Assembly: GCA_022844405.1 (NCBI GenBank)
Contig: JALHLV010000022.1
Location: 1 to 58,063 of the forward strand
Direction: 5' to 3'
From: Sphingomonadales bacterium
GTDB taxonomy: Bacteria; Pseudomonadota; Alphaproteobacteria; SMXS01
DNA length: 58,063 bases
The position numbers were made by a program, and so were the translations under genes. Positions 4,479 to 27,742 of this stretch are shown in pieces. Each line of letters starts with the position of its first letter. Position 1 is the first letter of the stretch. The notes below the pieces were generated by a model. It searched no databases. It was not told the origin of the DNA and saw nothing but the letters and a program-made list of their open reading frames with translations.

Positions 4479-4484
4479 GGTTTC

Positions 4485-6243: not shown

Positions 6244-6246
6244 GGG

Positions 6247-11850: not shown

Positions 11851-12471
11851 CTACGCCTCGCCCGATTCCTCCAGAAGAAGCCGGGCAATAGCGTCGACCC
11901 TTACAAGACGCGTTCGATGATAGTCTCGTAGCCGCAACCGCAGGTCGCCTGCATTTCTGTTGGCCCACAATTCAACCCAGCCCGCCAACTCGTGGTCGGC
12001 GCCGGTAAATATCCGGGGCTCGCACCGGCGGGCCGCATACAACTGATCATTGAGGGACAGGATTGTTTCCGCGAGAGCGCCATTCGGTTGGTCGGCAGCG
12101 ATGTCGCCGATCAGAGCCGTAAGATCGGACGCATATGATCCCGCAAGCAGCAGGGGCGGAGCTGATACGGCCTTCGGCCGGCGTGATCTGCTCGCGCGCT
12201 CAAGACAGAGATGTACGAGAGCGCTTGAGAGTTCATACAGGTGTTCCAGCCGACGCGCGGATGCCGTTGCGACCACGTAGCCTTGATGAGGCGCCAGGCG
12301 AACGAGGCGCTCCGCATGCAGTCGCGCCAAAGCCTCCCGAACGGGTGTCACGCTCATGCGCAATCGATCACCAAGAAGCCGTATGTCCAACGGTCCAACC
12401 GGAATCGAGCCGCTCAGAATATCGATTTTCAACCTCTGGTATGCGCGCTCCCACGCTGACGCATCTGCCAT
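11851..12471 (-). CDS. GntR/FadR-type transcriptional regulator
   Basis: Regulator of 206 aa from ATG 12471. The N-terminal winged helix has the GntR signature (AYQRLKIDILSGSIPVGPL and VTPVREALARLHAERLV). The C-terminus is an all-helical FCD-like effector domain. It is divergent from the ABC transporter gene, with a ~240-base shared control region containing the dyad CCGGA-CAATT-TCCGG. GntR genes are recalled as neighbours of isopeptidase-type lasso clusters, so a role in lasso locus control is reasonable but inferred. Confidence 0.85.
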   Translation of the reverse strand: MADASAWERAYQRLKIDILSGSIPVGPLDIRLLGDRLRMSVTPVREALARLHAERLVRLAPHQGYVVATASARRLEHLYELSSALVHLCLERASRSRRPKAVSAPPLLLAGSYASDLTALIGDIAADQPNGALAETILSLNDQLYAARRCEPRIFTGADHELAGWVELWANRNAGDLRLRLRDYHRTRLVRVDAIARLLLEESGEA

Positions 12472-12612
12472 CGTTCTCGCCTCACCAAGAGTCGGATCGC
12501 ATTGTTGAGGGTTGAAACGCAGATAGCCTCCTCTAGGACGTCGCGAATCGCACATCGGCGGTCAGCTTGGCGCCGCAAAAACCCCAAGTCGTCGTCATTC
12601 CGAGGACGAGAG

Positions 12613-12627: not shown

Positions 12628-12708
12628 TTAGAGTCGTAAACTGGGACGGTTCTCTCGTCGCAGGTTTGGCCGTTGTGGGGCGGTTTTTGCGCAATCGGGT
12701 TGGAGCGG

Positions 12709-14472
12709 ATGACGGCGATCCTTGATCGCAACCTTTGGACGGCGTTCGGTCGTACCTTGGACGCGCCGATCCTTGTCCGTGTCATGGCTTCACTCGTCCT
12801 TGCCGCCATCGTCGCGGTCTCCGCGGCGCTTGCTCCCATGTTCCTTGCGCAAATCGTAGACAGGCTTTCAGCTGGCAAAGTCGATCAGAGCGTCTTCGGT
12901 CTCGTTGTCGCGTATCTGGCTGCGCTCTGCGTTGGGAAGCTCTTGGGCCAGGTTCAATCATTTCACTACGCTAGCAGCGATCAGGCGCTTCAACGCCGTG
13001 TAAGTCAGCTGACCTTTGACCAGCTGATACGCCTTCCGGTGAGCTTCCATCTGAGCGCCAGTCCGGGCGCCCTAGTCCAGATTCACAGTCACGCCTTGCA
13101 AGGCGTTCGGATGGTGCTCTCGCTCGCGTGTGCGACCCTGTTTCCGATCATCGTGCAGATGATGGTGATCCTCTGGATCGTGAGCAACCATTTCGACCTG
13201 AAGATCTGGATCGTCGTCACTGCGACGATCGCGGCGTATTTCGGAGTTTTCGCCTGGGCTGTGCGTCACACCAGCAGCCCGATCAATCAAGCGCTTCGTC
13301 GGCAGGTTGAAGCATCGGGCCTTCTCTCGGAAGGCCTCGCAAATGTGGAGACCATCAAGAACTGCACAGCCGAACAACGTATTGGCCTGAAGTTCGCACG
13401 GGCTGCCCGCGAGGTTGAGGAAGGATGGCGAGCGGCATTCCTTCGCAGACTTGAGACGGGAATGGCGGCGGCAGCCGTCTTTCTCGTCAGCATGACCTGC
13501 GCGATCTGGCTTGGTCTCGATGGAGTACGGAACGGGCAGGTATCGGCAGGCGGCTTCCTGCTGCTGATCACTTACATGCTCCAGGTCATCGGACCACTTG
13601 AGATGACTGGCTACGCCGTACGCGATCTTACGCAAGGCGCGGCCTACCTGGCCGGCTGGATGGGGCTTTTCGCGGAGCGGGCCGAACAAGCCGTCCCAGA
13701 TCCCGCTGCGCCTATCGTGTCGCATTCTCGCGGCGGCCCTCCTGCGATCAGTTTTGAAAGAGTTTCACTCACCTACGATGGAGGCAGGCAAGTCCTCGAC
13801 GAGGTGGCGTTTTCAATCGCTCCTGGAACAGCCGTAGCTATCGTCGGTGCAACAGGGGAAGGGAAGACTTCGCTGCTCCGTATTCTTCAGAAGCACGTGC
13901 TGCCGGATTCCGGCGGCGTGCGGATCGACAACGTTCTCTTGCCGAACATTGAACTGCCGGCGCTGAGACGCCGCATCGCGGTCGTCTCGCAAGAGGTAAC
14001 GCTCTTCAACGGGTCTCTGCGGTACAACCTTCTGCTTGGGAATCCGTCATCGACTGAAGACGACATTTTGCGCGTCCTTCGCCTGACCCGGCTGGATCAG
14101 ACGGTTGCAGGGCTCGGGGAGGGCCTCGATACGCTTGTCGGCGACCGCGGGTTCAAGCTGTCAGGAGGAGAACGGCAGCGGGTAGCGATTGCGAGGGCGT
14201 TGCTGCGAGATGGCGATATCCTGCTTCTCGATGAAGCCACTGCAGCCCTCGATGTTAAAACGGAAAAGGCCCTGTGCGACGATCTCATGTCCATGGCGAT
14301 TGGTCGTACGACCTTGATCGTGACGCATCGTCTGGCGTTGGCCGCCATCGCGGCAAAGATCGTCGTTCTGCACAAGGGACGCGCGGTGGAGCAGGGCGGA
14401 CATCATCAGCTGATTGCCGCGAGAGGTTTCTATTATCGGCTTTGGTCAACTCAACGGGTTCAAGAGTCCTGA
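12709..14472 (+). CDS. ABC transporter, fused permease/ATPase (probable lasso peptide exporter)
   Basis: Half-transporter of 587 aa from ATG 12709, which has GGAG five bases upstream; the frame is open to a TTG at 12673 without a ribosome site. The N-terminal six-helix exporter domain is followed by an ATPase with Walker A VGATGEGKT (Lys at about 386), signature LSGGERQ (about 484-490), Walker B DILLLDEATAAL and the H-loop THR. There is no peptidase C39 domain. Position at the head of a lasso locus suggests the McjD-like 'D' exporter/immunity role. The family alone would also fit other exporters. Confidence 0.8.
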   Translation: MTAILDRNLWTAFGRTLDAPILVRVMASLVLAAIVAVSAALAPMFLAQIVDRLSAGKVDQSVFGLVVAYLAALCVGKLLGQVQSFHYASSDQALQRRVSQLTFDQLIRLPVSFHLSASPGALVQIHSHALQGVRMVLSLACATLFPIIVQMMVILWIVSNHFDLKIWIVVTATIAAYFGVFAWAVRHTSSPINQALRRQVEASGLLSEGLANVETIKNCTAEQRIGLKFARAAREVEEGWRAAFLRRLETGMAAAAVFLVSMTCAIWLGLDGVRNGQVSAGGFLLLITYMLQVIGPLEMTGYAVRDLTQGAAYLAGWMGLFAERAEQAVPDPAAPIVSHSRGGPPAISFERVSLTYDGGRQVLDEVAFSIAPGTAVAIVGATGEGKTSLLRILQKHVLPDSGGVRIDNVLLPNIELPALRRRIAVVSQEVTLFNGSLRYNLLLGNPSSTEDDILRVLRLTRLDQTVAGLGEGLDTLVGDRGFKLSGGERQRVAIARALLRDGDILLLDEATAALDVKTEKALCDDLMSMAIGRTTLIVTHRLALAAIAAKIVVLHKGRAVEQGGHHQLIAARGFYYRLWSTQRVQES

Positions 14473-14671: not shown

Positions 14672-15421
14672 ATGCGCAGCTCTTACTGGACGTTTATCGA
14701 GGCGTGTGACGAAACGCAGTCGATCCGCTCCGTGAAGGATCTGGTCGGCGTAACCATGCGCGGCCTCGGGGTCGACGGTTTCGCCATCGTCACTCACGGC
14801 CGGATCGAGGACCTCCGAAGCCTTGGCGTGTTGCTCCATAACTGGCCGGTCGAGGCCGTCGAATGGATGTTTGCGCATCAGCTGGATTGCTCACCAAGCC
14901 CGCTGTTCGATGCTGTCGAAAAGAAGGCTGGGCCGGTCTATTGGCCACGGCACAATGCGCGGCGGGACGCTATCAGAATGCCGGAGCGACAGTGGTTTGA
15001 CCAACTGCGTAAGCGCTCTGGTCAAAGCGAAGGTGTATCGCAAGCGCTCAAGTCCGTTATCGTCGGCGCCTCGTGCTCTCTGACGTCGGCGGATCGGCTC
15101 GACCTGGACTGCGTCCGGCTCTGCATGCGGATAGGGAACTACGCCTATCAGCAAATCCTGGAACTGCAGAAACCGAAGCTGGGTGAAGCCGAACAGCTTA
15201 CCGCGCGGGAGCACGAGCTTCTCTATCGTGCAACAATCTTTGGGGAGCGGCCCGCCGACGTTGCAAGTCAGGTCGACGTCAAGATCTCGACAGTCCGCAC
15301 ACTCCGCCAGAAGGCGAGTGTCCGCCTGGACGCAGGAAGCCAGGAGCAGGCGGCCTGGCGAATGGTCGAGACCGGTCAGCTCTTTCGGGCGGGCCGCAAG
15401 ACCCGCCCCCGGGGGCGCTAG
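14672..15421 (+). CDS. LuxR-family regulator with autoinducer-binding-like domain
   Basis: Protein of 249 aa. Residues about 15-165 resemble the acyl-homoserine-lactone-binding fold (LGVDGFAIVTHGR, HNWPVEAVEWMFAHQLD, then SPLFDAV). Residues about 180-230 form a LuxR/GerE-like HTH (LTAREHELLYRATIFGERPADVASQVDVKISTVRTL) that is somewhat diverged. No luxI-type synthase is in the window, so it would be a LuxR solo. It sits between the exporter and the TonB-dependent receptor on the same strand, which suggests density- or signal-dependent control of the lasso locus. Ligand and targets are unknown. Confidence 0.75.
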   Translation: MRSSYWTFIEACDETQSIRSVKDLVGVTMRGLGVDGFAIVTHGRIEDLRSLGVLLHNWPVEAVEWMFAHQLDCSPSPLFDAVEKKAGPVYWPRHNARRDAIRMPERQWFDQLRKRSGQSEGVSQALKSVIVGASCSLTSADRLDLDCVRLCMRIGNYAYQQILELQKPKLGEAEQLTAREHELLYRATIFGERPADVASQVDVKISTVRTLRQKASVRLDAGSQEQAAWRMVETGQLFRAGRKTRPRGR

Positions 15422-15557: not shown

Positions 15558-18257
15558 ATGCAGCGGAACAGGGATCGGACAAAAAGCGGTGCTGGCGTTT
15601 TCAGAGCGGCCTTGCTGGCGGCAACGCCTCTCGCCGTCACTCTGTTGGCAACGCCTGCGGCCTGGGCGCAGACGCAAAGCTATGTGTTCAACATCGATAG
15701 CCAGCCACTTTCGTCGGCTTTGTTGGCTTTGGGCCGGCAAGCAGGTCTATCGGTGCTGGCGCCCACCGCGCTCGTCGAAGGCAAGCGCGGACCAGAAATC
15801 AAAGGGCAGATGAGCGCGGAAGGGGCGCTCGACCGGCTTCTGCAGGGGTCGGGCCTCAGCTACGTGTTCGTACAGTCGAGCGCGGTGAAGATTGTCGCCA
15901 AGGATGGAACGCGAACGGCGCCCTTGCCGACGAGTGTTCCTGCATCTGATGAAGCAAGCGACAGGGTTGTGGTGACGGGTACGAACATCCGCGGCGCGCA
16001 GCCAACTTCCTCATCGGTCGACGTATATACGCGCGAGGATATTGCACGAACAGGCGCGACCACCACCGAGCAGTTTGTCGCCAAGCTTCCGCAGAACCAG
16101 GCCACGTACTCCCAGTTCGCTCCAGCAGCGACGACCGTTCTCAACTTGGATGCCGTCACCTCTGTGGACCTTCGCGGCCTTGGTGTTGGAACAACGCTCA
16201 CGCTCCTCAACGGACGTCGCGTTTCGCTCTCGAACGGAGGGCAGAGCGCTGACGTGTCGATGATTCCTGCGTCTGCTCTCGAGCGGGTCGAAGTGCTGAC
16301 GGACGGAGCCTCGGCGATCTACGGCTCGGATGCCATCGGCGGGGTAATCAACTTCATTCTCCGTGATGACTTCGAAGGCGCCGAAACACGGTTGTCGTAT
16401 GGCGGCGTCACGAGCGGCGGCCTACGGCAGACAGATGCGAGTCAAACCTTCGGCGCCAGATGGGAAGGAGGGCGCGGTCTCGCTTCCTACAATTTCCACG
16501 CCGCTTCGGCGCTGGAGACATCGGACAGAACTTACGCTGCTGGATCAGGGCCAGGGACTTTGACGCCGACAGATACGCGGCACCATGTCTTCCTGACCGG
16601 CGAACAGGCTGTCGGCGAACGCCTTACGCTAAGTGCAGATTTCGGACAGAGCTGGAGGAAGGTGAAGAACAACTACTCTATTCTCCTGAGTCCGGTGCCA
16701 GCCGCTCACACCTTCACCCACTACACGAGCCAGACCGACCAGATCTTTGGCGCGCTCGCTGCCGAATATGAAGTCACGGGCGATCTCACCGCTGATTTCT
16801 CTGCCGCCTATTCCGAAGTCGACGTGGATGGCCTTGCCACCTTGGTCGAGCCCAATCTCGTCCCGCCGACGGCAACGAATGCCGATCTCGGCACGCGCAA
16901 CTCCCAACTCGATGTGATGGCAAAACTGGGCGGGACACTCTTCGCGTTGCCCGGTGGGGACCTTCAATTTTCTGTCGGGCTCAGCGTACTGGAGGAAGAG
17001 TACAAGGGCCGAAGCCCCATCACGAGCATTCAGAGCGCGGGTTCGCTTGGACGCCGCTCGACGTCTGCCTTCGCCGAGATCTGGGCGCCTCTGATTGGAC
17101 CGGAACAACAGATTCCGTTCGTCAAAGCGTTCGCTCTAAGCCTTGCCGCGCGTTACACGGATTACGAAGACACCAGCGAGGCCGCTGTAAGACGCGACTT
17201 TGGCGATTCCACCGATCCGAAAATCGCCTTTGCCTGGGAGCCCGTCGAGTCGCTTCGCGTCCGGGGCAGTTACGGGAGCTCGTTTCGCACGCCCTCGCTG
17301 ACCCAGCTCGATAACACGGGCGGACTTCACTATCTCACAACCACGGCTATCGGGGGACAGCCCTCGATCTATCTGGGCCTGACGGGATATGCCGATGCCG
17401 ATCTCGCGCCTGAGACGGCTGACACATACACGTTCGGTCTCGATTTTCAGCCCTTGTGGGACGAGGGCCTGCGCATTGCCGCCACCTACTACAGCATCAA
17501 CTACACCGATCGCATCGAAGTAGCGCCAACTGGCGGGCTCAACCCCTTCACGAGCCCGAACCTGCTGCCGGACGTGATGTATCGTCCGCCTTCGGCGGCG
17601 TTTCTGGAGGAAGCGCTGCGAGCGACACGACTGCTTTTCAACACGACAGGGATCAATGTCACCGATCCCGCCGCAGGTGCGGGGGCGCTGTTCGCCCGCT
17701 CAGACGTTTGGGTCTACGACCGGCGGTTCAAGAATCTCGCGCTTTCCAGCCAGGAAGGCATCGACTTCAACGCATCAAAGCGGCTCTCGACCGACTGGGG
17801 CGACCTTAATCTCGGTGCAAACGTTACCCACATCCTGAAGTACGAGAAGCGGCGATCGAGCGCCGGCGCCGTACTGCCTGCGACCGATGTTCCGGGGCAG
17901 CCAGCCAATTGGCGCGGTCGAGCCTTCGGCAGTCTCACAACGGGCGCCTTCAACGGCACGCTGAGCGTCAACTATGTTGACGACTACTCCAACCCGCAGG
18001 CGCCTGTTGGTCTGCAGCAAATCGACAGCTGGACGACTGTCGATCTTGCGCTGACCTACGACCTCGACGGGGCAGAGGCGTCCACTGCAAAGTCGGGGAC
18101 GCGGTTGAGCCTCAGCGTGCAGAATCTCTTCAACGAAGATCCACCAGAGGTCCGCACGGGTGCAGGCTCCAACCTCTTTCTTCCCGTTGGCTTCGACCCT
18201 TCCAACGCCAATCCACTTGGGACACTCGTCGTCCTGGGGATCACCAAGACATGGTGA
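15558..18257 (+). CDS. TonB-dependent receptor with signalling (STN) domain
   Basis: Outer-membrane receptor of 899 aa. The signal peptide ends near AWA before QTQ. An STN/secretin-TonB signalling domain follows at about residues 42-120 (IDSQPLSSALLALGRQAGLSV). Then come the plug (YTREDIARTGATTTEQF; GLGVGTTLTLLNGRRV; DAIGGVINFILRDDFEG) and a beta-barrel ending ...LGITKTW with the usual aromatic terminus. STN receptors pass a signal to a FecR anti-sigma factor, and fecR and fecI genes are nearby. The stop overlaps the isopeptidase start by seven bases. The likely role is to recognise and import the lasso peptide. Confidence 0.9.
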   Translation: MQRNRDRTKSGAGVFRAALLAATPLAVTLLATPAAWAQTQSYVFNIDSQPLSSALLALGRQAGLSVLAPTALVEGKRGPEIKGQMSAEGALDRLLQGSGLSYVFVQSSAVKIVAKDGTRTAPLPTSVPASDEASDRVVVTGTNIRGAQPTSSSVDVYTREDIARTGATTTEQFVAKLPQNQATYSQFAPAATTVLNLDAVTSVDLRGLGVGTTLTLLNGRRVSLSNGGQSADVSMIPASALERVEVLTDGASAIYGSDAIGGVINFILRDDFEGAETRLSYGGVTSGGLRQTDASQTFGARWEGGRGLASYNFHAASALETSDRTYAAGSGPGTLTPTDTRHHVFLTGEQAVGERLTLSADFGQSWRKVKNNYSILLSPVPAAHTFTHYTSQTDQIFGALAAEYEVTGDLTADFSAAYSEVDVDGLATLVEPNLVPPTATNADLGTRNSQLDVMAKLGGTLFALPGGDLQFSVGLSVLEEEYKGRSPITSIQSAGSLGRRSTSAFAEIWAPLIGPEQQIPFVKAFALSLAARYTDYEDTSEAAVRRDFGDSTDPKIAFAWEPVESLRVRGSYGSSFRTPSLTQLDNTGGLHYLTTTAIGGQPSIYLGLTGYADADLAPETADTYTFGLDFQPLWDEGLRIAATYYSINYTDRIEVAPTGGLNPFTSPNLLPDVMYRPPSAAFLEEALRATRLLFNTTGINVTDPAAGAGALFARSDVWVYDRRFKNLALSSQEGIDFNASKRLSTDWGDLNLGANVTHILKYEKRRSSAGAVLPATDVPGQPANWRGRAFGSLTTGAFNGTLSVNYVDDYSNPQAPVGLQQIDSWTTVDLALTYDLDGAEASTAKSGTRLSLSVQNLFNEDPPEVRTGAGSNLFLPVGFDPSNANPLGTLVVLGITKTW

Positions 18258-20530
18258 GTGGAGTGGCAGTCTGGAAACAGCACCACATCCCTCGGCGAAC
18301 AGCTCGGCCAAAATTCTTCCCTTCGCGGAAGACTCTAGCCGCGGCGTTGCCCATGTTGTTGCTGGCGAGTTGCGAAGCAAGCGGTCGCGTTCCCGACAGG
18401 AGTGCTGCGATACCGCTAGAATCTTCCGCGGGCGTGATTTCCACCCGGGAGTTGGTCGAGGTTACCACGCTTTCAGGCCTGCGCGTTTCCCCCAACCAAC
18501 GGCTCGCCGTTGTGAGAGAGGAACGCCAGGAAGTGTCGTCGAGCGCGACGATCCTTACATGGCGGATCATCGACCTTCAGACCGCCGAAACGACGGCCAT
18601 CATCGATGCGGGAGATCCCTTCTGGAACAACAACGGTGGCATCGCGCGCGAGGCTCCAGTCTGGTCGCCTGACAGCAAGCGGATCTACTTCCGGAAAGTC
18701 TCGGGGGAGGAGGTTCAGATCTGGGAGGCGCCGAGCGACGGGGGACAGCCACAGCAACTTACTCAAGAGGAAGCAGACATCGCCGCTTTTGAGGTTGGGC
18801 CTGACGACTCCATCACCTACGTAGCCGCTGGGGCCACGCGGACCGACATTAAACTCGCCGAGATTGAAGAACACAGTCGTGGCGTCTTGATGGGCCCTGC
18901 GATCATCGCGGGCCTCCGTATGGAGCGCGGCTTCCCGTTCAACGGCCGCATGGCGACCTACAGATATCTTGAAGGTGCTGATGGGGATCGCCGTGGAACG
19001 CTCCTGGCGAAGCGATATCCGCGGGTTATGAGATTGCCAGCCGGCCGAGGGCAAGCGATCCGGGTTTCAGAAGAATCGGCGCGGACGTTCCTGGATGGAA
19101 AGAACGTTCAGCTCGGCCCGACCCGATCCGCAGGCATGCCGGTTGTCTTCGATCACTCTGTTCAAAGCGGCGACCTGATCGCAACTGTGGACACGGGCGG
19201 CGAGCCGCGTCCCGTCCCTGCGACATCGATTGGCGCAAAACGGCGTGTGTTCTGGGGCCGCGTCGGCGCCAGCGCATCTCAACGCGTTCAGTGTCTGGAT
19301 CCACTCTGCATCAACGCCGACATGCTCCAGCTCGTCGGATGGAGATCTGGACAGCGTGAACTGATCCTCCAGGCGGAGAGCCTCGGTGTGTCCCAGTTGA
19401 TTGTGTGGGACATCTATTCAAACAAAATCCGCGTCGTCATGGAGAGAAACGGCGTCGTCGGTTCCGATGATTCTGGAACCGTTGGCGCATGCGGAGTGGC
19501 GGGGGATCGCGTCGTCTGCATCGCCTCCGCCTCAAACGAGCCGCCACACGTTGTCGCGATTGACCTGGTGTCTGGCCAGATCACCACACTGCACGACCCA
19601 AATCCTGGACTAACCCAGTTGAGGTTGGGTGATGCGATGCAAGTGCGGCTGGTCGACCGCTATGGGAACATCACAATCGGACGTGTGATTCTGCCAAGAA
19701 GCCGAACGGAACAGCATCGCTTACCCTTGGTGATCACGTCCTATTCCTGTCGCGGCCTCTTGCTGGGCGGTTCTGGAAGGGACGTTCCGGAGCATGTTTT
19801 GGCTTCACGCGGGTACGCGGCGGTTTGCGTCGATATGGGAGCCGGAACCGTACAGAAGGCTCCTGGTTTCAAGATGACATCCATCACCGGCGACAACAGC
19901 GCGCTCGACTTCGTGGAGGCGGCCGTCGATGTGCTGTCAGACGCAGGGATCGCGGATCCGAAGCGGGTAGCGATTTCCGGTTACAGCGCCTCTTCAACTT
20001 ACACGACCTCCGCCCTTGCCCGGTCGCGCAAATTCACGGCCGCGATTGTGACCACAGCCGGTTCGTTCGACGCCATCACCTGCTACCTGTCCGCAACCTA
20101 CCGCTCTTGCGAAACACTGGCGAAGCAAGAGGGCTTTGAGCGTCCGTACGATGCGCGGGAGGGTATTCTAAAAAACTCTCCGGCTTGGAACGCGGATAAA
20201 ATCCACACGCCGCTTTTGATGCAGCTTCCCGAGTCGGAATACCCGGAGATGATGCAGCTCTACGGCGCTCTGCTGGACTATGACAGAGCAGTCGAGATGT
20301 ATGTGTTCGCCGGCGCCTTTCACTACAAGAACGACCCAAAGCAACGGCTGACCGTGTATGATCGGAATGTGGAGTGGATAGAGTTCTGGCTGAAGGGATT
20401 GGAGTCGGCGCGCACGGACCTCACCGATCAGTACCTGCGATGGCGGGAGATGAGGGAAGGGCGATGCTCGCTCCCTGCAGGCGATCGAGACGACGAAGAT
20501 CCACCGTGGTTTTGCGCGCCGCGGCACTGA
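18251..20530 (+). CDS. Lasso peptide isopeptidase (AtxE2-like, S9 prolyl-oligopeptidase family)
   Basis: Serine hydrolase of 759 aa that should open the lasso isopeptide bond. A basic N-terminus is followed by a hydrophobic stretch and lipobox LASC (Cys about residue 41), so it is probably a lipoprotein. The middle is a beta-propeller (WSPDSKRIYFRK; IWEAPSDGG). The catalytic domain has the nucleophile Ser579 in SGYSASST and His691 in AGAFHYKN. Glu663 in QLPESEY lies 28 residues before the His, the spacing I recall for the acidic residue of AtxE2. The end GALLDYDRAVEMYVF...YDRNVEWIEFWL is very like known lasso isopeptidases. It is coupled to the receptor gene upstream. Confidence 0.88.
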   Translation: MVSGVAVWKQHHIPRRTARPKFFPSRKTLAAALPMLLLASCEASGRVPDRSAAIPLESSAGVISTRELVEVTTLSGLRVSPNQRLAVVREERQEVSSSATILTWRIIDLQTAETTAIIDAGDPFWNNNGGIAREAPVWSPDSKRIYFRKVSGEEVQIWEAPSDGGQPQQLTQEEADIAAFEVGPDDSITYVAAGATRTDIKLAEIEEHSRGVLMGPAIIAGLRMERGFPFNGRMATYRYLEGADGDRRGTLLAKRYPRVMRLPAGRGQAIRVSEESARTFLDGKNVQLGPTRSAGMPVVFDHSVQSGDLIATVDTGGEPRPVPATSIGAKRRVFWGRVGASASQRVQCLDPLCINADMLQLVGWRSGQRELILQAESLGVSQLIVWDIYSNKIRVVMERNGVVGSDDSGTVGACGVAGDRVVCIASASNEPPHVVAIDLVSGQITTLHDPNPGLTQLRLGDAMQVRLVDRYGNITIGRVILPRSRTEQHRLPLVITSYSCRGLLLGGSGRDVPEHVLASRGYAAVCVDMGAGTVQKAPGFKMTSITGDNSALDFVEAAVDVLSDAGIADPKRVAISGYSASSTYTTSALARSRKFTAAIVTTAGSFDAITCYLSATYRSCETLAKQEGFERPYDAREGILKNSPAWNADKIHTPLLMQLPESEYPEMMQLYGALLDYDRAVEMYVFAGAFHYKNDPKQRLTVYDRNVEWIEFWLKGLESARTDLTDQYLRWREMREGRCSLPAGDRDDEDPPWFCAPRH

Positions 20531-20567: not shown

Positions 20568-20681
20568 CTAAGCCGACGGAAAGGGAAAGAACTGGCCGTG
20601 AATACGGATTATCAGGTCTTCGAGGAAGTGAGGAGTAATGAGTCCTCGCGTGCATGTCGAAACGGCGCCAAGCTTGATCAT
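20568..20681 (-). CDS. Lasso peptide precursor A2 (predicted, 37 aa)
   Basis: Tiny gene with ribosome site GGAG five bases before ATG 20681. The leader is MIKLGAVSTCTR with Thr at -2, followed by core Gly1 and a ring segment GLITPHFLE in which Glu9 is the only acid at positions 7-9. A 16-residue tail begins DLII and ends PFPSA. Total, leader and core lengths (37, 12 and 25) equal those of the neighbouring A1, and the two share MIKLG, VS, TR and Glu9-Asp10-Leu11. The leader motif LG.xS...TR before Gly1 matches the astexin-1 precursor (LGKASAETR). A Cys in the leader and a hydrophobic tail are unusual. It converges with the isopeptidase gene. Confidence 0.78.
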   Translation of the reverse strand: MIKLGAVSTCTRGLITPHFLEDLIIRIHGQFFPFPSA

Positions 20682-20754
20682 ACCTACTCCTGCATTGAGA
20701 ACTGAGCGGAAACCGGAAGCGTCTTCACTGTCGAGCGACATGACCAGCGCGTGA

Positions 20755-20787
20755 CGCCAGGTGCGAGAGGAAGTCTTGCACCTGGCG
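20755..20787 (-). other. Inverted repeat between the two lasso precursor genes
   Basis: Arms CGCCAGGTGC (20755-20764) and GCACCTGGCG (20778-20787) are perfectly complementary across a 13-base loop, and a further G:U-type pair extends the stem. It begins 11 bases after the A1 stop and has no T-run. It is therefore better read as an mRNA stabiliser or partial attenuator of A1-A2 read-through than as a full terminator. Confidence 0.65.
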
Positions 20788-20798
20788 CCGGCTGCAGA

Positions 20799-20912
20799 TC
20801 AGCCCATCGCCTTCGGAATGTTCTCGCCGTCGCGTTTGAAGACGAGGTCTTCATAGTGAGTCACGAGCGGAGTGCCGCGTGTCTCTTTCGAAACCCGTCC
20901 GAGCTTGATCAT
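20799..20912 (-). CDS. Lasso peptide precursor A1 (predicted, 37 aa)
   Basis: Small gene with a good ribosome site (CAGGAG six bases before ATG 20912) and an in-frame TAG two codons upstream that fixes the start. The leader MIKLGRVSKETR ends with the ETR of astexin leaders (Thr -2). The core starts with Gly1 and its ring is GTPLVTHYE with acceptor Glu9. A 16-residue tail begins DLVFKR, with bulky Phe13-Lys14-Arg15 as plausible steric plugs, and ends KAMG. The predicted mature product is a class II lasso peptide of up to 25 residues with a nine-residue ring. The gene lies 125 bases after the cyclase stop on the same strand. Confidence 0.88.
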   Translation of the reverse strand: MIKLGRVSKETRGTPLVTHYEDLVFKRDGENIPKAMG

Positions 20913-20985
20913 GGTCTACTCCTGTTTGAGATGTCGCGGGGCTGCGACGAGGAGAGCGTGTCATGCGCGCTTAGGCGCGTGAAAG

Positions 20986-21002
20986 AATATTTCCGGAATA
21001 TT
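20986..21002. promoter_or_regulatory. AATATT-N5-AATATT dyad upstream of lasso precursor A1
   Basis: Two AATATT hexamers flank TCCGG in the 125-base gap between the cyclase stop and the A1 start. On the minus strand a TTGACG (21030-21025) lies just upstream, but no convincing -10 hexamer is correctly spaced. The AT-rich dyad in GC-rich DNA is the best candidate for a precursor promoter/operator. Confidence 0.4.
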
Positions 21003-21037
21003 TTCGCATAGCACAGGAGTGCCGCGTCAACGCGAAA

Positions 21038-22855
21038 TCAGCGCCGCCATGATGCGAGCCAGGATTCGACCGCGATCAGATCCATCACTGTCCCCAGGCC
21101 TTCTCCCTGCAACAGATGTTCAGGCGTAAGCATGCTGGCGACTCGTCCGCGATCAACAATGCCCCGGTTCATGCAAGCACCGTTCAGGATCAACTCGCGG
21201 ATATAGCCGAGGTCTCCGACAACGCCGGCGATCGTACTGTGATTGACGAAGCCCTTGTTGAATCTCTGCGCGACTGACTTTGGAAGGAGGTCGCCGAACG
21301 CGTCTCGTTCAAGCGCGCGATCTGTTCCTCCGGTCCCGAACACAAAGGTCGGCGTCCTCAACGAAAGCTCTATCAACGGTTGTGAAATGAGGGGTTGGAC
21401 GGCGTTGTGCGAAAGGACATGGCCGCGCGTTCCATGATAGTGTCGAAGAGCCAGAATGCTGCGCAACTGCTCCGCTTTTCCGTTGGGCAGGGCCCGCGCC
21501 TCGTTCAACCATGCTGATGACAGCGTGTCCTCCGGAAGCGCTGCAATGGCATCGGATGTCAGCACCTGGTGATCACTAACCCTGGCTCTTGCCAACGGCG
21601 CATAGGGGTCCCAGCGTCGGCCGCCGACCAATTTTACAGCGGCATCCTTCGCAAGGTACCAAAGCGAGGATTGAAGCAGCATGGCGGTGTCATAGGCGAC
21701 ATTCCAGGCGTCACGCCCCAAACCCTTCAACCGGACATAGTCGGCAAATGCGTCGCCCGCGATCGACCGTTGCAGAAAAATGCCATCCCCGCCGTGTCCA
21801 CTGAAAACGCTCTGGGTTCCGGTCGCCTGACAGGCCGCGACAAGCAAGGCGTCCACGTCGGCGCCGAGGAGCTCCCGCGTTGGACGAGCAAGGCGAGGCC
21901 CGGAGACAGCCCCACGAAAGCCCATAGCTTTTTGATCCAACTCTTGTTCGATCAAAGGAATGCCTGCGAAAGCTGCCGCCTCTCTCGCGTAGTTAAGCTC
22001 AGATGATTCATAGCCTTGGCTGACAAGATGCAAACCGAACACCGGAAGCGTGCGCGCACGGCTGACGAGGCTGGCGACGATCGATGAGTCCAACCCGCCG
22101 GACATTCTTACCAGGATGGCGCCGCACGATCGCGTCCACGCCTCAACGCAGCGCTCCGTCGTGGCGCGAAACTCGTCTCGCGCTGTGTCGTAGGATTGGC
22201 GATTCGGTTCGCCCGCAATCGCAACCGGGTTCCACATCCAGTTTCGCTCGGGCCTGCGGCCTGGCCGCCACGTCATGCGTTGACCGGGCAGCAGCTCGCT
22301 CAGTTCGGTAACTCCGGTGCGCTCGTTGAGCTGGTAGCCAGACAGAAAAAACGCGCCTACCGATGCCCAGTCGATGGAAAGCTTCACATCGGAAAGGTCG
22401 GCGATGTCGTCAACGAAGGCACACAGAATGTCGACGCTACCTGCATGAGTAAAATAGCAGGCGGCCGCACCACATGGGTCTCGAAGGACGTGTAGAAGCG
22501 AAGCGTCGGTGCCGCGAACAAAGGCGACGTAGCTGCCCCAATATGCCGAGATGAGCTCTTGGCCGCCGGTGGCGACGATCCGCGCGCTCGAGTTAAGGTC
22601 CAGCCGGGCGATCGGATCAGGACGGTCCGAGTTGGTGCTGAAGAGCGTCCCGACAACGACGCCAGAGTTTCCCTCAAGAGTAACCAGGCGCAGGTCAGTG
22701 GTCGGTGGCTTCAGCGCCAGGACCACAAGGCCCGGTTCATTGAAGGCATTGATCCAGCCCGCCGGCCTAGTTTTCAGTTCCGCAATCCAACGCGATACCT
22801 GAGCGTTGCTATCGCCGTGCTCTGGATCCCAGGCGAATGCAACAAAGCGATCCAA
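21038..22855 (-). CDS. Lasso peptide cyclase (asparagine-synthetase-like, 'B1/C' protein)
   Basis: ATP-dependent isopeptide-forming enzyme, 605 aa. An N-terminal glutaminase-like domain (MDRFVAFAWDPEHGD; no Cys2, so no amidotransferase activity is expected) precedes an asparagine-synthetase ATP-pyrophosphatase domain. That domain has the PP-loop SGGLDSS at residues 252-258 and a second block VFSGHGGDGIFLQ. It adenylates the ring acid (Glu9 of A1/A2) for attack by Gly1. The only in-frame start matching the family N-terminus is TTG at 22855. Unusually, the precursors lie after it rather than before it. It is divergent from fecR across 272 bases in which I see no clear promoter. Confidence 0.9.
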   Translation of the reverse strand: MDRFVAFAWDPEHGDSNAQVSRWIAELKTRPAGWINAFNEPGLVVLALKPPTTDLRLVTLEGNSGVVVGTLFSTNSDRPDPIARLDLNSSARIVATGGQELISAYWGSYVAFVRGTDASLLHVLRDPCGAAACYFTHAGSVDILCAFVDDIADLSDVKLSIDWASVGAFFLSGYQLNERTGVTELSELLPGQRMTWRPGRRPERNWMWNPVAIAGEPNRQSYDTARDEFRATTERCVEAWTRSCGAILVRMSGGLDSSIVASLVSRARTLPVFGLHLVSQGYESSELNYAREAAAFAGIPLIEQELDQKAMGFRGAVSGPRLARPTRELLGADVDALLVAACQATGTQSVFSGHGGDGIFLQRSIAGDAFADYVRLKGLGRDAWNVAYDTAMLLQSSLWYLAKDAAVKLVGGRRWDPYAPLARARVSDHQVLTSDAIAALPEDTLSSAWLNEARALPNGKAEQLRSILALRHYHGTRGHVLSHNAVQPLISQPLIELSLRTPTFVFGTGGTDRALERDAFGDLLPKSVAQRFNKGFVNHSTIAGVVGDLGYIRELILNGACMNRGIVDRGRVASMLTPEHLLQGEGLGTVMDLIAVESWLASWRR

Positions 22856-23127: not shown

Positions 23128-24078
23128 ATGTCCTCCGACGCGATAAAACTCAGTCGCCAGGATCAGGCCGCCAATTGGTTTGCGGCGGAGCGGGCAGGCG
23201 TCATGCTCGTAGAGCAACGAGCCGAATTCGACGCGTGGAAAGCCGATCCTCGCAACATGGCCGCGCTCGAAGCCATGCGCGAGCTTTGGAACGATCTGTC
23301 TGTCTTGAAGGGTCGCGATCCGGCGCCTGCGAAGAAACCAGCGTCTCGATTCGTTCCCTTGGCGGCCGCGGTGGCCTTCTTTGTAGTGTGCGGACTTGCG
23401 GCTGCCAGCCTGATGTTGGCTCCAACGGAAACGCCGATCGTTACGGCAGAGGGGCAGCAGAAGACGCAATCGATGCCGGACGGTAGCGTCGTTGCGGTCA
23501 ACGTCGCATCCACCGTCAGCTACAGGTTCACTGAAACACAACGCCTCGTAACGCTTTCGGATGGAGAAGCGGCATTTTCCGTGAAGCCCGATCCCGACAA
23601 GCCCTTCGTGGTGCGAGTGGGGGACCTTGAGGTCCGGGCAGTCGGCACTTCATTCAATGTTCGGCGAAGAGATGGGGTACTCCAGGTCTCTGTCAGTGAG
23701 GGACAGGTCCAGCTTTGCCGCCTAACCAGTTCAGGGGAGTCGTTGGTGGCTAACCTCAGCGCGGGCCAGGTGCTGGAAATCCCGGCATCCATGCCTGCTG
23801 CCGCCAAGGCTCCGACGCCTATGGCAATCCAGCCTTCACAGGTCGCCGAATGGCGCATGCGCGTCGTCACGTACGAGGACGCGACGGTCCGCGAGCTAGT
23901 TGAAGATTTCAATCGGTACTTCGAGCGCAAGTTGCTGGTCGCTCAGCCCGAGCTTTTGGCTCGACGTGTCACGGTTCGGTTGCAAGTAGAGAACCGTGAA
24001 GAGGCAATAGAGACTTTGGCAGTGCTCCTCGACGCAAAGGTGTTGAGATCAGAAAGGGAGGATGCTCTGACCTATTGA
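23128..24078 (+). CDS. FecR-type anti-sigma / sigma regulator
   Basis: Membrane sensor of 316 aa. The N-terminal cytoplasmic domain has the FecR-N pattern with conserved Trp residues (AANWFAAERAG, FDAWKADPRNMAAL, LWNDL). One membrane helix spans about residues 75-97. The periplasmic FecR domain (MPDGSVVAVNVASTVSYRF; GEAAFSVKPDPDKPFVVRVGDLEVRAVGTSFNVR) and a C-terminal domain that contacts the receptor STN domain follow. It should relay receptor occupancy to the FecI-like sigma factor encoded 0.8 kb downstream. It is split from fecI by two reverse-strand XRE genes. Confidence 0.9.
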   Translation: MSSDAIKLSRQDQAANWFAAERAGVMLVEQRAEFDAWKADPRNMAALEAMRELWNDLSVLKGRDPAPAKKPASRFVPLAAAVAFFVVCGLAAASLMLAPTETPIVTAEGQQKTQSMPDGSVVAVNVASTVSYRFTETQRLVTLSDGEAAFSVKPDPDKPFVVRVGDLEVRAVGTSFNVRRRDGVLQVSVSEGQVQLCRLTSSGESLVANLSAGQVLEIPASMPAAAKAPTPMAIQPSQVAEWRMRVVTYEDATVRELVEDFNRYFERKLLVAQPELLARRVTVRLQVENREEAIETLAVLLDAKVLRSEREDALTY

Positions 24079-24104
24079 GCTCGGCGGAGCCGCATGCATC
24101 CAAT

Positions 24105-24374
24105 TCACTCTCGCATCAGTAGCTGTATGTCTTTAACAAGCCGACTGGCGTCGATTCCCAACACATTAGAGATTCGCACCAGTTCGATTACATCGAGCCG
24201 TCTTTGGACAGATTCTATCTTGGCGACGATTGACTGATTCCAGCCCAACTCATCGGCCAGCGATTGCTGGCTGAAGCCAGCTTTGATGCGCTTCTTCACC
24301 AGCTTCTCCACGAAGCTAGCGTATGCGGCATCATGCAACGACGCAGTCCGCGATTTGTATGGCGGGTTGCCCAT
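24105..24374 (-). CDS. XRE-family repressor, copy 1
   Basis: Cro/CI-type HTH protein of 89 aa (RIKAGFSQQSLADELGWNQSIVAKIESVQRRLDVIELVRI). It is a clear paralogue of the 93-aa protein encoded 72 bases upstream on the same strand (shared SLHDAAYASFV / SLHDPAYAAFV, and GWNQSIV). Its promoter region carries the same duplicated palindromic block. It is probably an autoregulated repressor within the lasso control region. Confidence 0.85.
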   Translation of the reverse strand: MGNPPYKSRTASLHDAAYASFVEKLVKKRIKAGFSQQSLADELGWNQSIVAKIESVQRRLDVIELVRISNVLGIDASRLVKDIQLLMRE

Positions 24375-24392
24375 GCCCGCCGGTTAAGTGCG

Positions 24393-24424
24393 TTATAGCA
24401 TTATGCCATAATCGGCTTGAGCCG
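24393..24424. promoter_or_regulatory. Duplicated operator block, copy 1 (XRE copy 1)
   Basis: The 19-base near-palindrome TTATAGCATTATGCCATAA (24393-24411) is followed by CGGCTTGAGCCG (24413-24424). The block is 19 bases upstream of the XRE copy 1 start and matches the second copy at 24747-24778 in 31 of 32 positions. A TATAAC -10-like hexamer on the minus strand overlaps it. Confidence 0.75.
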
Positions 24425-24445
24425 CACGCATCGCGTCCGAACCGT

Positions 24446-24727
24446 CTAATCGGCAGAATCTGAACTGAGTTTTCGTTGGATCTGTCGAACGAGGGCAATG
24501 GGATCTACGCCGATCGCCTCTGTAACTCTAATGAGCTCGACTACATCAATCCGTCGCTGGCGGGTTTCGATCTTCGACACGATCGACTGATTCCAACCGA
24601 GCGCTGCTGCAACATCACGCTGCTTCATCCCCGACTGGGATCGCAGCTCGACGAGCGTCGTCACGAACGCTGCGTAGGCAGGGTCGTGAAGTGACATCGT
24701 TCGAGTTTTGCGCGGCGCGCTTCCCAT
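24446..24727 (-). CDS. XRE-family repressor, copy 2
   Basis: Cro/CI-type HTH protein of 93 aa (SGMKQRDVAAALGWNQSIVSKIETRQRRIDVVELIRVTEAIGVDP). It is paralogous to the gene downstream, and both are preceded at nearly equal distance (19 and 20 bases) by the same 32-base operator block. It is divergent from the fecI-like sigma gene, so its operator also lies in front of that gene. It probably controls sigma factor expression as well as its own. Confidence 0.85.
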   Translation of the reverse strand: MGSAPRKTRTMSLHDPAYAAFVTTLVELRSQSGMKQRDVAAALGWNQSIVSKIETRQRRIDVVELIRVTEAIGVDPIALVRQIQRKLSSDSAD

Positions 24728-24746
24728 TGATTGGCGCGTAAGGGCA

Positions 24747-24778
24747 TTATAGCATTATGCCATAATCGGCTTAAGCCG
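24747..24778. promoter_or_regulatory. Duplicated operator block, copy 2 (between XRE copy 2 and the sigma factor gene)
   Basis: The 19-base element TTATAGCATTATGCCATAA (24747-24765) and the perfect palindrome CGGCTTAAGCCG (24767-24778). On the minus strand a perfect TATAAT -10 (24751-24746) lies in the block, with a weak -35 (TTAAGC) 17 bases away. Repressor binding would therefore cover the XRE copy 2 promoter. The divergent sigma gene starts 69 bases further on. Confidence 0.78.
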
Positions 24779-24846
24779 GATCGCGTGACCGAGCGGCTAC
24801 ATCGGCGATCTGGTCGCCGTCTCTAGGTCGGGTTTGGGGAAGTGCT

Positions 24847-25347
24847 TTGAAAGAACCCGGGTCAAAGCTGCGCGCTGTGGACGAAGCCTTTCGGCAGCGT
24901 GAGGCGAAGCTTCGCGACATCGGTCGGCGCGTTGGCCAGCAGGACGTTGAAGATCTATACCAGGATGCTTTTGTGAAGATCGTTGAGCGATCCCAAGCGG
25001 AAGACATACCCAAGCTTGACAACCTGCTTCGGCACGTTGTCCGCTGCCTCACCATCGATAGATCCCGGCTGAGGGATCGTCGCCAAACGTTCAATTCGGA
25101 CGAAGCAGGGGACAACGTCGTGGACGCGGTTGCCAATCCGGAACGGCAGATCATCGGCTCTCAGCGGCTGAAGAGGGTGATGGCGGCAATCGAAGCGATG
25201 CCGCCGAAGCGACGCGAAGTATTTCTGATGCATCGCGTGGACGAGCTGACTTACGCCCAGATTGCCCGCCGCCTCAACGTCAGCGCTAAGACCGTGGAGA
25301 AGCATTTTGCCCTGGCCATGCGCCAGCTCTCCGACACGGACGATTGA
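24847..25347 (+). CDS. FecI-like ECF sigma factor
   Basis: Extracytoplasmic-function sigma factor of 166 aa. Region 2 (VEDLYQDAFVKIVER; LRHVVRCLTIDRSRLRDR) and region 4 (IEAMPPKRREVFLMHRVDELTYAQIARRLNVSAKTVEKHF) are both clear. It starts at TTG 24847, with GGGGAAG upstream as ribosome site. It is partner of the FecR-like protein and the STN receptor, and likely activates lasso or receptor promoters. It precedes the B2 protease gene by 69 bases on the same strand, so the two may share a transcript. Confidence 0.88.
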   Translation: MKEPGSKLRAVDEAFRQREAKLRDIGRRVGQQDVEDLYQDAFVKIVERSQAEDIPKLDNLLRHVVRCLTIDRSRLRDRRQTFNSDEAGDNVVDAVANPERQIIGSQRLKRVMAAIEAMPPKRREVFLMHRVDELTYAQIARRLNVSAKTVEKHFALAMRQLSDTDD

Positions 25348-25416
25348 TCTAGTCTCTGCCTAGGTCTTCATCGGAATGATGACGATCCGAATGGCGTGAC
25401 GAGGTAGGCTAGGACT

Positions 25417-26163
25417 ATGGCCTCGTCGTCCGAATCTCCCAGACCGCCGACCCGCCGGCTCGCACTCAGTAGCGACGTCTTCTTTTGTGTCACCGAAGGT
25501 CAGGGCGTCTTTCTTGACCTGCGGCGGGACGACTACAGTGCTATTCCAATCGTCTTCGATCCTATAAACGCCGGTGAACCCGCGCTCGACGCCGCGATCG
25601 ACCGGGCCTTTGAAACGCATCGGCAGGATTTGCTCGAAGCCCAACTCGTCGAGGAGGTTTCGCAGAACAGAGGCGATGTTCAGGCCTTCAGGAGATTGGT
25701 GCGGCCGGAGTTGAACATCTTCCATCCCGACGATCAGCGCGCCTTCGGGATGGCCCGACCGTCAGGGCAGGGCACTCGGGTGGGTGTCTCAGACGTTTTG
25801 GACTTCTTCTTGGCTTCGTACCGCGCATCGAAGCTTCTCAAGAAGCGGCACATCCATCACATTGTCCGCGGAGTGCGTCGCAGGAAGGCGAGTGCCGCCA
25901 GCGGAACCAGCGACGTTGACGCGCTTCGAACGCACACAGCAATCTATCGCAAGCTGAGGCCTTGGTATCCGCGCGGATACTTGTGCCTCTATGACGGCCT
26001 GGCGCTGATCGAATTCCTGGCGCGGCGACAACTGTTTCCGGCCTGGGTCTTTGGTGTTCAAGCGCAGCCATTTGGAGCCCATTGTTGGGTACAGCAGGGT
26101 GACGTCTTGCTGAACGAGTCGACCGAGTATGCCGGTCAGTTCACGCCCATTCTGTCGGTGTAG
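25417..26163 (+). CDS. Lasso peptide leader protease (B2, transglutaminase-like, with RRE-like N-terminus)
   Basis: Protein of 248 aa. The N-terminal ~80 residues (LALSSDVFFCVTEGQGVFLDLRRDDY) resemble the leader-binding RRE domain fused to the protease, as in proteobacterial McjB. The C-terminal domain has Cys190 in GYLCLYDGLALIEFL and His222 in FGAHCWVQQGD. The 32-residue spacing equals that between the catalytic Cys and His of McjB. The third triad position, 12 after the His, is Glu234 (LLNES) rather than the usual Asp. It should cut precursors A1/A2 after the ETR/CTR. It is separated from the cyclase and precursors by the regulatory genes and lies on the opposite strand. Confidence 0.87.
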   Translation: MASSSESPRPPTRRLALSSDVFFCVTEGQGVFLDLRRDDYSAIPIVFDPINAGEPALDAAIDRAFETHRQDLLEAQLVEEVSQNRGDVQAFRRLVRPELNIFHPDDQRAFGMARPSGQGTRVGVSDVLDFFLASYRASKLLKKRHIHHIVRGVRRRKASAASGTSDVDALRTHTAIYRKLRPWYPRGYLCLYDGLALIEFLARRQLFPAWVFGVQAQPFGAHCWVQQGDVLLNESTEYAGQFTPILSV

Positions 26164-26207
26164 AGTTCAAAATCAACGCCAACTGGACCGAAGGTTACGG
26201 CGCAAAT

Positions 26208-27308
26208 TTAGGTGAGCCCCAGCACTTCCCTAAGTTGCGGGCGATCGAGACCTGGAAACAGTGGCTCTGGCGTGACGTCAAAGCTCATGTGTCGCCCAAC
26301 CACTCTGAATCTGGCGGCGTTGAGTCCAACCCAGAAGAGAGCGAGATCTTTGTCCCTGGTGCAAAGCATCGCCCGATCATGCGGATACATTGCAAAGAGA
26401 TGCATCAAGATACCAAGAGAGCGCAGGTCAGCCAGTGCATTGTAAGCGTCTCCTGCGCTGTAAGTGGGGCGAATTTTCAGGAGACGTTTCGCCGGGCTGG
26501 CGCCATTGGGGACGAACACAGTGCTCAAAGCCGCGACCAGGGCGAGAGAGGAGCGCTTGACGCCAAGATTGTTTGCAATGGCGATGATGTGGTTGCTTTT
26601 GTCGAAGCGGCGAGCATGAGCGACTGGCGAAACGAGGCCCGGTGCAACTTGCGAGAGGAACCTCTGCTCAAGTTGAAAGTCAGCCTGCGAACTTTGAAGA
26701 ATGCCAATCGTACCTGCCAGCAGCACCGGGTTGAGATCCAGTACTTTGGCCTTGGGGAGGCAAGCCGTAAGTTGTGCATGCGCCTCCCGCCATTGCTGTT
26801 CGATCTCATGCGGAGTCGGCGTGCGCTTGGTGTTTCCCTCAAGGGCAAAGAGGAATGGGTTTATCCGGATCTCCGATTCAGCAAAGAGATCGATAAAGTC
26901 AGGCTCCGGATTTGCGTTTCGCTGGCCGGCACTGAACCGACCGCGTAAATCAGAAACGACGCAGCGATCCGGCATCACGAGTGTGTCGCTGTGCGATGCT
27001 AGGGAGGAGGGCAGCCATCCACCGTTCACGAGCCCGATGGCGCGGCTGGCGAAGGGACTTTGAACGATCGCGTTGCCGCTAGCGACCCCTCCAACGTTCA
27101 CACCAGGAATGTCGGTTTCAAGGATTCGACCACTGTGAAATCGCAGATTGAACGTCGCGGGACCGTCAAGCGCGAGGAGTTCATCGTAGCCAAGTGGCTC
27201 GAACTGGGCGCCGACAACAGAAAATCTGCGCGGCGGTCCGCCATCCGGATCCTCGAGTTCCTGGAAGCTCAGAACATCGGTAGCCGTGTGAAGCGACGGG
27301 CGCGCCAT
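26208..27308 (-). CDS. Uncharacterised protein, possible PIN-like nuclease
   Basis: Protein of 366 aa from ATG 27308, which has GGAG five bases upstream; a GTG at 27332 in the same frame overlaps the preceding stop. I do not recognise a named family. The stretches TLVMPDRCVVSDLRGRF and, near the C-terminus, AMLCTRDKDLALFWVGL recall the first and last acidic motifs of PIN-fold RNases, but this is weak. Two central stretches are helical. It forms a likely two-gene operon with the 137-aa gene upstream and is divergent from the GHKL/PRTase gene, so it may be part of one conflict system. Confidence 0.6.
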   Translation of the reverse strand: MARPSLHTATDVLSFQELEDPDGGPPRRFSVVGAQFEPLGYDELLALDGPATFNLRFHSGRILETDIPGVNVGGVASGNAIVQSPFASRAIGLVNGGWLPSSLASHSDTLVMPDRCVVSDLRGRFSAGQRNANPEPDFIDLFAESEIRINPFLFALEGNTKRTPTPHEIEQQWREAHAQLTACLPKAKVLDLNPVLLAGTIGILQSSQADFQLEQRFLSQVAPGLVSPVAHARRFDKSNHIIAIANNLGVKRSSLALVAALSTVFVPNGASPAKRLLKIRPTYSAGDAYNALADLRSLGILMHLFAMYPHDRAMLCTRDKDLALFWVGLNAARFRVVGRHMSFDVTPEPLFPGLDRPQLREVLGLT

Positions 27309-27328
27309 GGGTACTCCGCGTGTGAAGC

Positions 27329-27742
27329 TCACGTAGCGACAGTGGCTTCGGAAGCAGGTTCAACAAAATTGACTGACGTCTGTGAATGAAGGCTAGCGAT
27401 AAAGTCGAACATGCGGCGTCCCGCTTCGCTGTCACCTAGTCCATGACTTGGCCAAGGCCGCGCGGGAAAGTCCCGGAATCTGGAAGTGGTCGGCCTGGCC
27501 AGTGGCGGCTTGCTCTTGGGTTTGCGAGGGCGAGGCGGCTTCGTGTTGGGGTCTTCGACCGAAATGCCCGATTCACCAGGATTGAATTCGTAGGTTTTGA
27601 TGAGGTCCTTTATGTCCTTGAGAGGCGCCCGGATCTGACCAAGCCACAGCTCGAGATCGTCCTCGTTCAGAAGCAGCAGCATTTCGCTCGCCAGGTAGAA
27701 GAATTGCCGCAGCGGCCAGACGCCTAACTTCGTACGTGTCAA
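27329..27742 (-). CDS. Uncharacterised small protein, partner of the PIN-like gene
   Basis: Up to 137 aa. The first residues (LRQFFYLASEMLLLLNEDDLELWLGQIRAPLKDIKDLIKTYEF) look helical; the middle is Pro/Lys-rich and disordered. The annotated start is TTG at 27742; ATG at 27685 with GAGCGA upstream is equally possible. Its stop lies just before the PIN-like gene, implying co-transcription and perhaps an antitoxin or adaptor role. No family was recognised. Confidence 0.5.
   Translation of the reverse strand: MTRTKLGVWPLRQFFYLASEMLLLLNEDDLELWLGQIRAPLKDIKDLIKTYEFNPGESGISVEDPNTKPPRPRKPKSKPPLARPTTSRFRDFPARPWPSHGLGDSEAGRRMFDFIASLHSQTSVNFVEPASEATVAT

Follow-up and report, generated by a model that had tools for sequence, protein, structure and literature searches.

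A predicted lasso peptide locus with two short-leader precursor genes, an ABC exporter and an isopeptidase on an alphaproteobacterial contig

Genes and features of the locus

The DNA analysed here is a stretch of 58,063 nucleotides (nt) from a Sphingomonadales bacterium (hereafter, the window), in which two short genes, A1 and A2, stand in tandem among the genes and features collected in Table 1. The cyclase gene C, A1 and A2 follow one another on the minus strand. On the plus strand, the genes for the ABC exporter, LuxR-like regulator, receptor and isopeptidase lie left of the precursors, and those for FecR, the sigma factor and B lie right of them; the GntR gene is on the minus strand at the far left of the lasso locus. 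C, FecR, the XRE pair and the sigma factor gene intervene between the precursors and B, and 6 kb separate the precursors from the end of the ABC gene. A search of genome contigs with the cyclase gave 16 related loci. One of these, L009 (contig JALHLR010000025.1, from a metagenome-assembled genome (MAG) labelled Hyphomonadaceae), has a cyclase of 96% identity and the same gene order as the window; the cyclases of the other 15 are 24-31% identical.

Table 1. Features of the window, with positions counted from its first nucleotide
Feature	Position	Strand	Description
GntR-family regulator	11851..12555	-	PF00392
ABC exporter (D-like)	12673..14472	+	599 aa from first TTG; true start may be downstream
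LuxR-like regulator	14672..15421	+	249 aa; weak autoinducer-binding match (PF03472, E 0.003, below cut-off)
TonB-dependent receptor	15558..18257	+	899 aa; overlaps start of isopeptidase gene; PF00593, PF07715, PF07660
Lasso isopeptidase, AtxE2-like	18251..20530	+	759 aa; lipobox-like LASC at residues 38-41
Lasso precursor A2	20568..20681	-	37 aa; leader MIKLGAVSTCTR, core GLITPHFLEDLIIRIHGQFFPFPSA; predicted ring Gly1-Glu9
Hairpin	20753..20789	-	just after A1 stop; 12-bp stem, 1x1 mismatch, 3 more pairs
Lasso precursor A1	20799..20912	-	37 aa; leader MIKLGRVSKETR, core GTPLVTHYEDLVFKRDGENIPKAMG; predicted ring Gly1-Glu9
Imperfect palindrome	20985..21004	-	AAAATATTCCGGAAATATTC; between C and A1
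Lasso cyclase C	21038..22855	-	605 aa; TTG start; asparagine-synthetase family, SGGLDSS motif; PF00733 (1.6e-18)
FecR-type anti-sigma factor	23128..24078	+	PF04773
Tandem XRE regulators	24105..24727 (24105-24374, 24446-24727)	-	between FecR and sigma factor
FecI-type ECF sigma factor	24847..25347	+	directly before B; PF08281, PF07638
Lasso B protein	25417..26163	+	248 aa; N-terminal RRE fused to cysteine protease (Cys190, His222)
hyp374	26208-27332		cargo absent from L009 contig
1551-aa protein	27976-32631		no Pfam match; cargo absent from L009 contig
Metallophosphoesterase-like protein	32628-34088		cargo absent from L009 contig

The starts of A1 and A2 are 231 bp apart, and each gene has 37 codons, of which 12 encode the leader (MIKLGxVSxxTR) and 25 a core that has Gly1 and Glu9. 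Both leaders end in Thr11 (position -2) and Arg12, Gly13 being the first core residue, and a GGAG ribosome site precedes the ATG of each gene; re-reading of the sequence and its open reading frames (ORFs) confirmed this layout as the initial annotation had described it. The A1 leader cannot exceed 12 residues because an in-frame TAG lies two codons 5′ of the ATG, which rules out a longer form. In an ungapped alignment, the two cores have G1, E9, D10, L11, G17 and P21 in common. The features generally expected of lasso precursors are present in A1 and A2, namely Thr at -2, a small first core residue and Asp or Glu at core position 7-9, and genes for both B and C lie in the same locus. When ORFs of 20-80 aa were scanned for the pattern [LIVM]Gxx[ST]xxT[RKQHNLF]-G-x5-7-[DE], A1 and A2 were the only matches in the window, and a direct sequence check found the leader motif to be common to A1, A2 and the precursors of relatives. 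The NCBIfam model lasso_benenodin (NF033522) scores A1 at 16.9 bits, below its cut-off of 33, and gives no match for A2; in a whole-genome search it yielded 18.5 bits (E 0.0086) with an alignment reading through a TAG, and it matched 8 of 398 genomes of the phylum, the host genome included at that E value. Calculated monoisotopic masses of the 25-residue lasso products are 2768.40 Da for A1 and 2846.53 Da for A2. In line with the earlier impression that the products look new, a search of the PMC library for the two ring strings, the full A1 core and two A1 leader strings found none of them.

The cyclase scores 67.9 bits against PF00733, over the cut-off of 21, and far under the cut-offs of the NCBIfam lasso-cyclase models NF033535 and NF033561 (40.3 of 525 and 79.9 of 300 bits, respectively); its G253, G254, D256 and S257 (GGxDS) are invariant in 17 sequences, as are Cys190 and His222 of B. 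The B protein exceeds the cut-off of the lasso B2 model NF033537 (66.4 bits versus 33). Its N-terminal part matches the lasso RRE protein TfuB1 (6jx3) at a profile E of 0.0025, and the best Foldseek match of its structure model (pLDDT 83.7) is TbiB1 (5v1v), with a probability of 0.97 but an E of 0.095, none reaching 0.001. Because these matches, although weak, are to lasso RREs, B is read as a fused protein with an RRE ahead of the protease. The neighbours named in the initial annotation were a cyclase, an isopeptidase and a B2 protease; the first two were borne out, but no B2 protease lies alongside the precursors, the protein in question being this fused RRE-protease, encoded 4.5 kb away on the opposite strand.

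The isopeptidase reaches 394.7 bits against the Atxe2-family model NF033523, narrowly under the cut-off of 400, and aligns with AtxE2 (5txc) at E 1.7e-41. The Ser-Glu/Asp-His set of the family is found as aligned Ser, Glu and His, the Ser being the residue that is Ala in 5txe and the Glu and His being those taken to be catalytic in AtxE2. The N-terminus is lipobox-like in both isopeptidase copies (LASC in the window, LVSC in L009), and the protein is probably periplasmic and lipid-anchored. Among the nine isopeptidase-like proteins of other loci, lipobox-like matches occur in L015 (LVAC, LSAC), and eight of the nine have none in the first 90 residues, as scanned from the first possible starts, some of these nine N-termini being unsure.

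An ABC match is present in six of the 15 other loci, an isopeptidase-like protein in nine, and both in three (L014, L022 and L023). Four of the nine isopeptidase-like proteins (L015, L016, L021 and L022) carry the serine motif GFSQG within a longer protein, and no such serine motif was found in that of L014; for these reasons, the five may not be true isopeptidases, which leaves L023 as the one firm further locus with both genes. In the window, exporter, isopeptidase, receptor and FecI/FecR genes occur together. In a tree of 12 ABC proteins, the eight lasso-adjacent ones fall apart from four ABC exporters of the host's own genome (95/99), three of these four being long branches.

Further regulators and two putative control elements accompany these genes. 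GntR-like matches occur in 8 of the 15 other loci, and the LuxR-like regulator is 98% identical in L009. The XRE pair is not clearly part of the lasso system, since L009 has a different tandem XRE pair in its place (29-37% protein identity); this swap, at 24035-24842, has sharp bounds and flanks of 89-94% identity, and a 40-nt direct repeat lies upstream of each XRE gene of the window (24385, 24739). The hairpin between A1 and A2 is a candidate transcript stabiliser or attenuator; the 91-nt stretch folds with a minimum free energy of -44.3 kcal/mol (z -2.7, 1 of 200 shuffles as good). The palindrome before A1 is unchanged in L009, even though the C-A1 intergenic stretch around it has 12 differences in 125 nt, and no further copy was found in the window at up to three mismatches, making it a candidate operator or promoter element for the A genes. 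Together, hairpin and palindrome suggest that the A genes are controlled separately; a search for sigma-70-like promoters near them returned none, against 0.6 expected by chance.

Related loci and the mobile setting

Comparison with L009 is informative on the precursors. The region as a whole is 93-94% identical; A1 differs at 0 of 114 nt, A2 at 6 of 114 and the spacer between them at 2 of 117. Five of the six differences in A2 fall at third codon positions and the sole amino-acid change is F to C in the core tail, which is the pattern of a coding gene. Since near-identity extends into the spacer, recent recombination could explain the conservation of A1 as well as selection does. The identification of A1 and A2 as lasso precursors, made in the initial annotation, is supported by the motif, the chance test described below, this codon-position pattern and the surrounding set of lasso genes.

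The window, which takes up its entire contig, encodes VirB4-like, VirB11-like and VirD4-like type IV secretion proteins, ParB and ArdC (1648-8223, 48116-50047 and 55348-56229), and reads as a conjugative plasmid or integrative element; neither a tRNA in the window nor an overlap of 12-399 nt between the contig ends was found. The L009 contig is co-linear with positions 1-24034 (93-94% identity), 24843-26162 (89%) and 34085-39582 (94%), and to the right of 39582 it matches only 47974-49931 (68%) and 54671-54994 (85%). The two contigs are thus versions of the same element, between which cargo has been exchanged. Position 11128 was rejected as the left border of the lasso module because it is only where the locus L009 ends, within a co-linearity that spans 1-24034. 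Directly after B, positions 26163-34084 have no DNA match in the L009 contig, which has other genes there. A DnaE-type polymerase and an ImuB/IMS-type gene form a pair at 34085-38889 that is 94% conserved in the L009 contig, and a 1297-aa protein (50615-54508) contains the PIN domain of the TPR-GreAB-C-PIN system (PF20698, 2.6e-23).

Searches of 7 genus, 10 family and 10 order genomes, own genome included and two of these genomes being 78-84% complete, returned only weak matches beyond the genes of the window: the cyclase matched weakly in five of six genus mates (best E 3.6e-9) and the isopeptidase model in all nine other family and order genomes (best E 3.7e-18), and at E 1e-30 the cyclase profile found the own genome only (1 of 10). 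At the same threshold, and with at most three candidates scored per genome, the profile matched 6 of 385 genomes of the class and 14 of 398 of the phylum, own included. Of 72,556 plasmid records, 26 match the window cyclase, the best at 31.7% identity, and the cyclase of L018 has no near relative among the plasmid records.

The leaders of A1 and A2 are shorter than the 20-40 aa given as the general range in the available part of PMC13352647. To place them, precursors were surveyed in 42 loci, many just 3-5 kb long, in which the window itself is L055 and L080 lies on the contig of L076. The motif picked out a convincing precursor in 24 loci and none in the other 18, a few of which (such as L058 and L067) yield candidates with looser motifs; the precursor-like ORF at 544-702 of L067 has LIELGxV twice in its leader, followed by a core starting with Ala. 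In 5 of the 24 (the window, L009, L012, L017 and L018), A follows C and has a 12-residue leader, the leaders of the last three being MINLGKISQVTK, MITLGIVSKATK and MIKLGKVSKATK, respectively. In the other 19, one of them unsure (L057) and two holding the same precursor (L019 and L024), A ends 706-1274 nt before the matched start of C, and leaders measure about 14-34 aa by the likeliest start. Since an alternative in-frame ATG would give a 12-residue leader also in L023 and in one of the two precursors of L072, 12 residues lie at the bottom of a range instead of being set apart by a wide gap. In L012, the precursor MINLGKISQVTK/VEKITPMRESLPFDMFFEIEF lies directly after the cyclase (6139-6240), and its core would start with Val and have Glu at position 9. 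B ends within about 20 nt of C in all 15 other loci from the cyclase search, but not in the window or L009.

L012, L017 and L018 group together in a single cyclase clade (100/100), and the Bacteroidetes label of L017 may therefore reflect mis-binning or transfer. In the cyclase tree (41 rows), the window and L009 do not join this clade, which asks for two changes, but a single clade of short-leader loci is not rejected by the AU test (p 0.079). The short leader may thus have arisen once or twice.

Proposed function and competing readings

We consider it likely that A1 and A2 are two lasso precursors served by one machinery, and that B, C, the exporter, the receptor, FecR with its sigma factor, and the isopeptidase act as a circuit. 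The sequence shows which genes are present and to which families they belong, as well as the precursor motif and a conservation pattern of the coding type; cleavage, threading, export, re-import, cargo and signalling are predicted from the families named. The RRE of B would bind the 12-residue leader, and the B protease would cut after Arg12. Cyclase C would then join the Gly1 amine to the Glu9 side chain around the tail, and the ABC exporter would send out the two resulting lasso peptides of 25 residues. The TonB-dependent receptor may re-import them, alone or with bound cargo, FecR and the ECF sigma factor would report the uptake, and the periplasmic isopeptidase would open the ring.

That the two genes could be chance ORFs adjoining a lasso cyclase deserves mention because short ORFs are plentiful in such GC-rich DNA, 291 of at least 30 aa overlapping 10000-34000. 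Two adjacent motif matches here compare, however, with two in total among 60 random windows matched to this one in length and dinucleotide composition (first-order Markov), a test that led us to reject chance; the leader start, spacing and ribosome site that A1 and A2 have in common point the same way, and, given also the codon-position pattern against L009, this explanation is extremely unlikely. It is likewise highly improbable that the short A2 leader is an artefact of start choice. An in-frame ATG does exist 20 codons upstream (20741) and would give a leader of 32 aa, but it has no evident ribosome site and is GTG in L009, and GGAG precedes MIKLG in A2 as it does in A1, for which the in-frame TAG leaves no room for more than 12 leader residues.

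Maturation of A1 alone, with A2 a decaying or diversifying duplicate, is rather improbable. The lack of an NCBIfam match for A2, the Cys in its leader, its very hydrophobic tail and its six changes from L009, against none in A1, would agree with it; five of these six changes, however, lie at third codon positions, and the ribosome site, leader motif, Gly1, Glu9 and 25-residue length of A2 are intact. A role of A1 and A2 as antimicrobial lasso microcins, setting element-bearing against element-free cells with the receptor as the entry gate and the ABC exporter and isopeptidase as self-protection, is conceivable, though we doubt it. The element has conjugation genes, the A2 core tail varies between two near-identical elements, and the accessible text of PMC7549694 treats the presence of an ABC gene as a hint that a cluster may be antibacterial. 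Against this, the available part of PMC9266682 describes isopeptidase-class lasso peptides, astexin-1 excepted, as being without antimicrobial activity, and FecR/sigma and GntR fit a regulated uptake system better.

A broader and distinctly speculative picture, which we regard as improbable in its entirety, would be of a conjugative element with a self-contained lasso circuit that makes, exports, re-imports, senses and opens its peptides. Its leader would have been pared to the stretch recognised by RRE and protease, two cyclase lineages would perhaps have reached the 12-residue leader and A behind C independently, and the peptides would serve as cargo carriers or as signals among holders of the element. 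In practical terms, the locus contributes two lasso cores that the search of the PMC library did not return, and its natural 12-residue leader would be a convenient minimal tag for making lasso peptides in vitro and for establishing what the RRE requires. It also adds a further locus combining the exporter of one class with the isopeptidase of the other, and could make the purpose of isopeptidase-class peptides, with their export, re-uptake and ring opening, approachable from one locus.

Comparison with known lasso peptide systems

The window locus resembles isopeptidase-class loci of the astexin, benenodin, sphingopyxin and caulosegnin type in its short precursors with Thr at -2, Gly1 and Glu9, its fused B, its asparagine-synthetase-type C, its AtxE2-like isopeptidase, and its TonB-dependent receptor, FecI/FecR and GntR genes. 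As far as PMC9266682 is available, such loci have an almost constant order, with GntR before A and the receptor and sigma/anti-sigma genes after the isopeptidase, and, rubrinodin excepted, no ABC gene; the accessible text of PMC5067487 speaks of an isopeptidase "instead of" an ABC gene, and that of PMC7549694 states that most proteobacterial lasso clusters without an ABC gene have an isopeptidase. The window has neither this constant order nor this absence of an ABC gene: unlike standard members, it places A after C and B 4.5 kb from the precursors, contains an ABC gene and has a 12-residue leader. The short leader, the position of A, the separation of B from C, the co-occurrence of ABC exporter and isopeptidase, and the element with conjugation genes had all been missed in the initial annotation. 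By its sequence, the locus works like the isopeptidase class but is not filed as a standard member, and it reads as a rearranged member that has kept, or gained, the exporter of the other class.

Three kinds of locus share parts of this arrangement. The rubrinodin locus, likened here by its description in the available part of PMC9266682 alone, has an exporter together with an isopeptidase, a receptor and FecI/FecR, as in the window. L012 (Emcibacter NORP245), L018 (Alphaproteobacteria NORP118) and L017 (the Bacteroidetes-labelled MAG) have the 12-residue leader form, A after C, a GntR gene and a related ABC gene; they differ in running GntR-ABC-B-C-A in one series, in cyclases only 24-26% identical and in cores of 20-21 residues, and no isopeptidase match was found in their available contigs, which for L012 and L017 span about 6 kb only. 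The third is the paeninodin locus, which comes from Firmicutes and is not known to have an isopeptidase. Described as padeC-A-B1-B2-D in the accessible text of PMC5067487, it has A after C and a D gene as in the window but differs by its split B1/B2 and a kinase gene; A after C is for this reason already known as such. The kind of system found here is a known one, and its short leader and gene order are what make it unusual.
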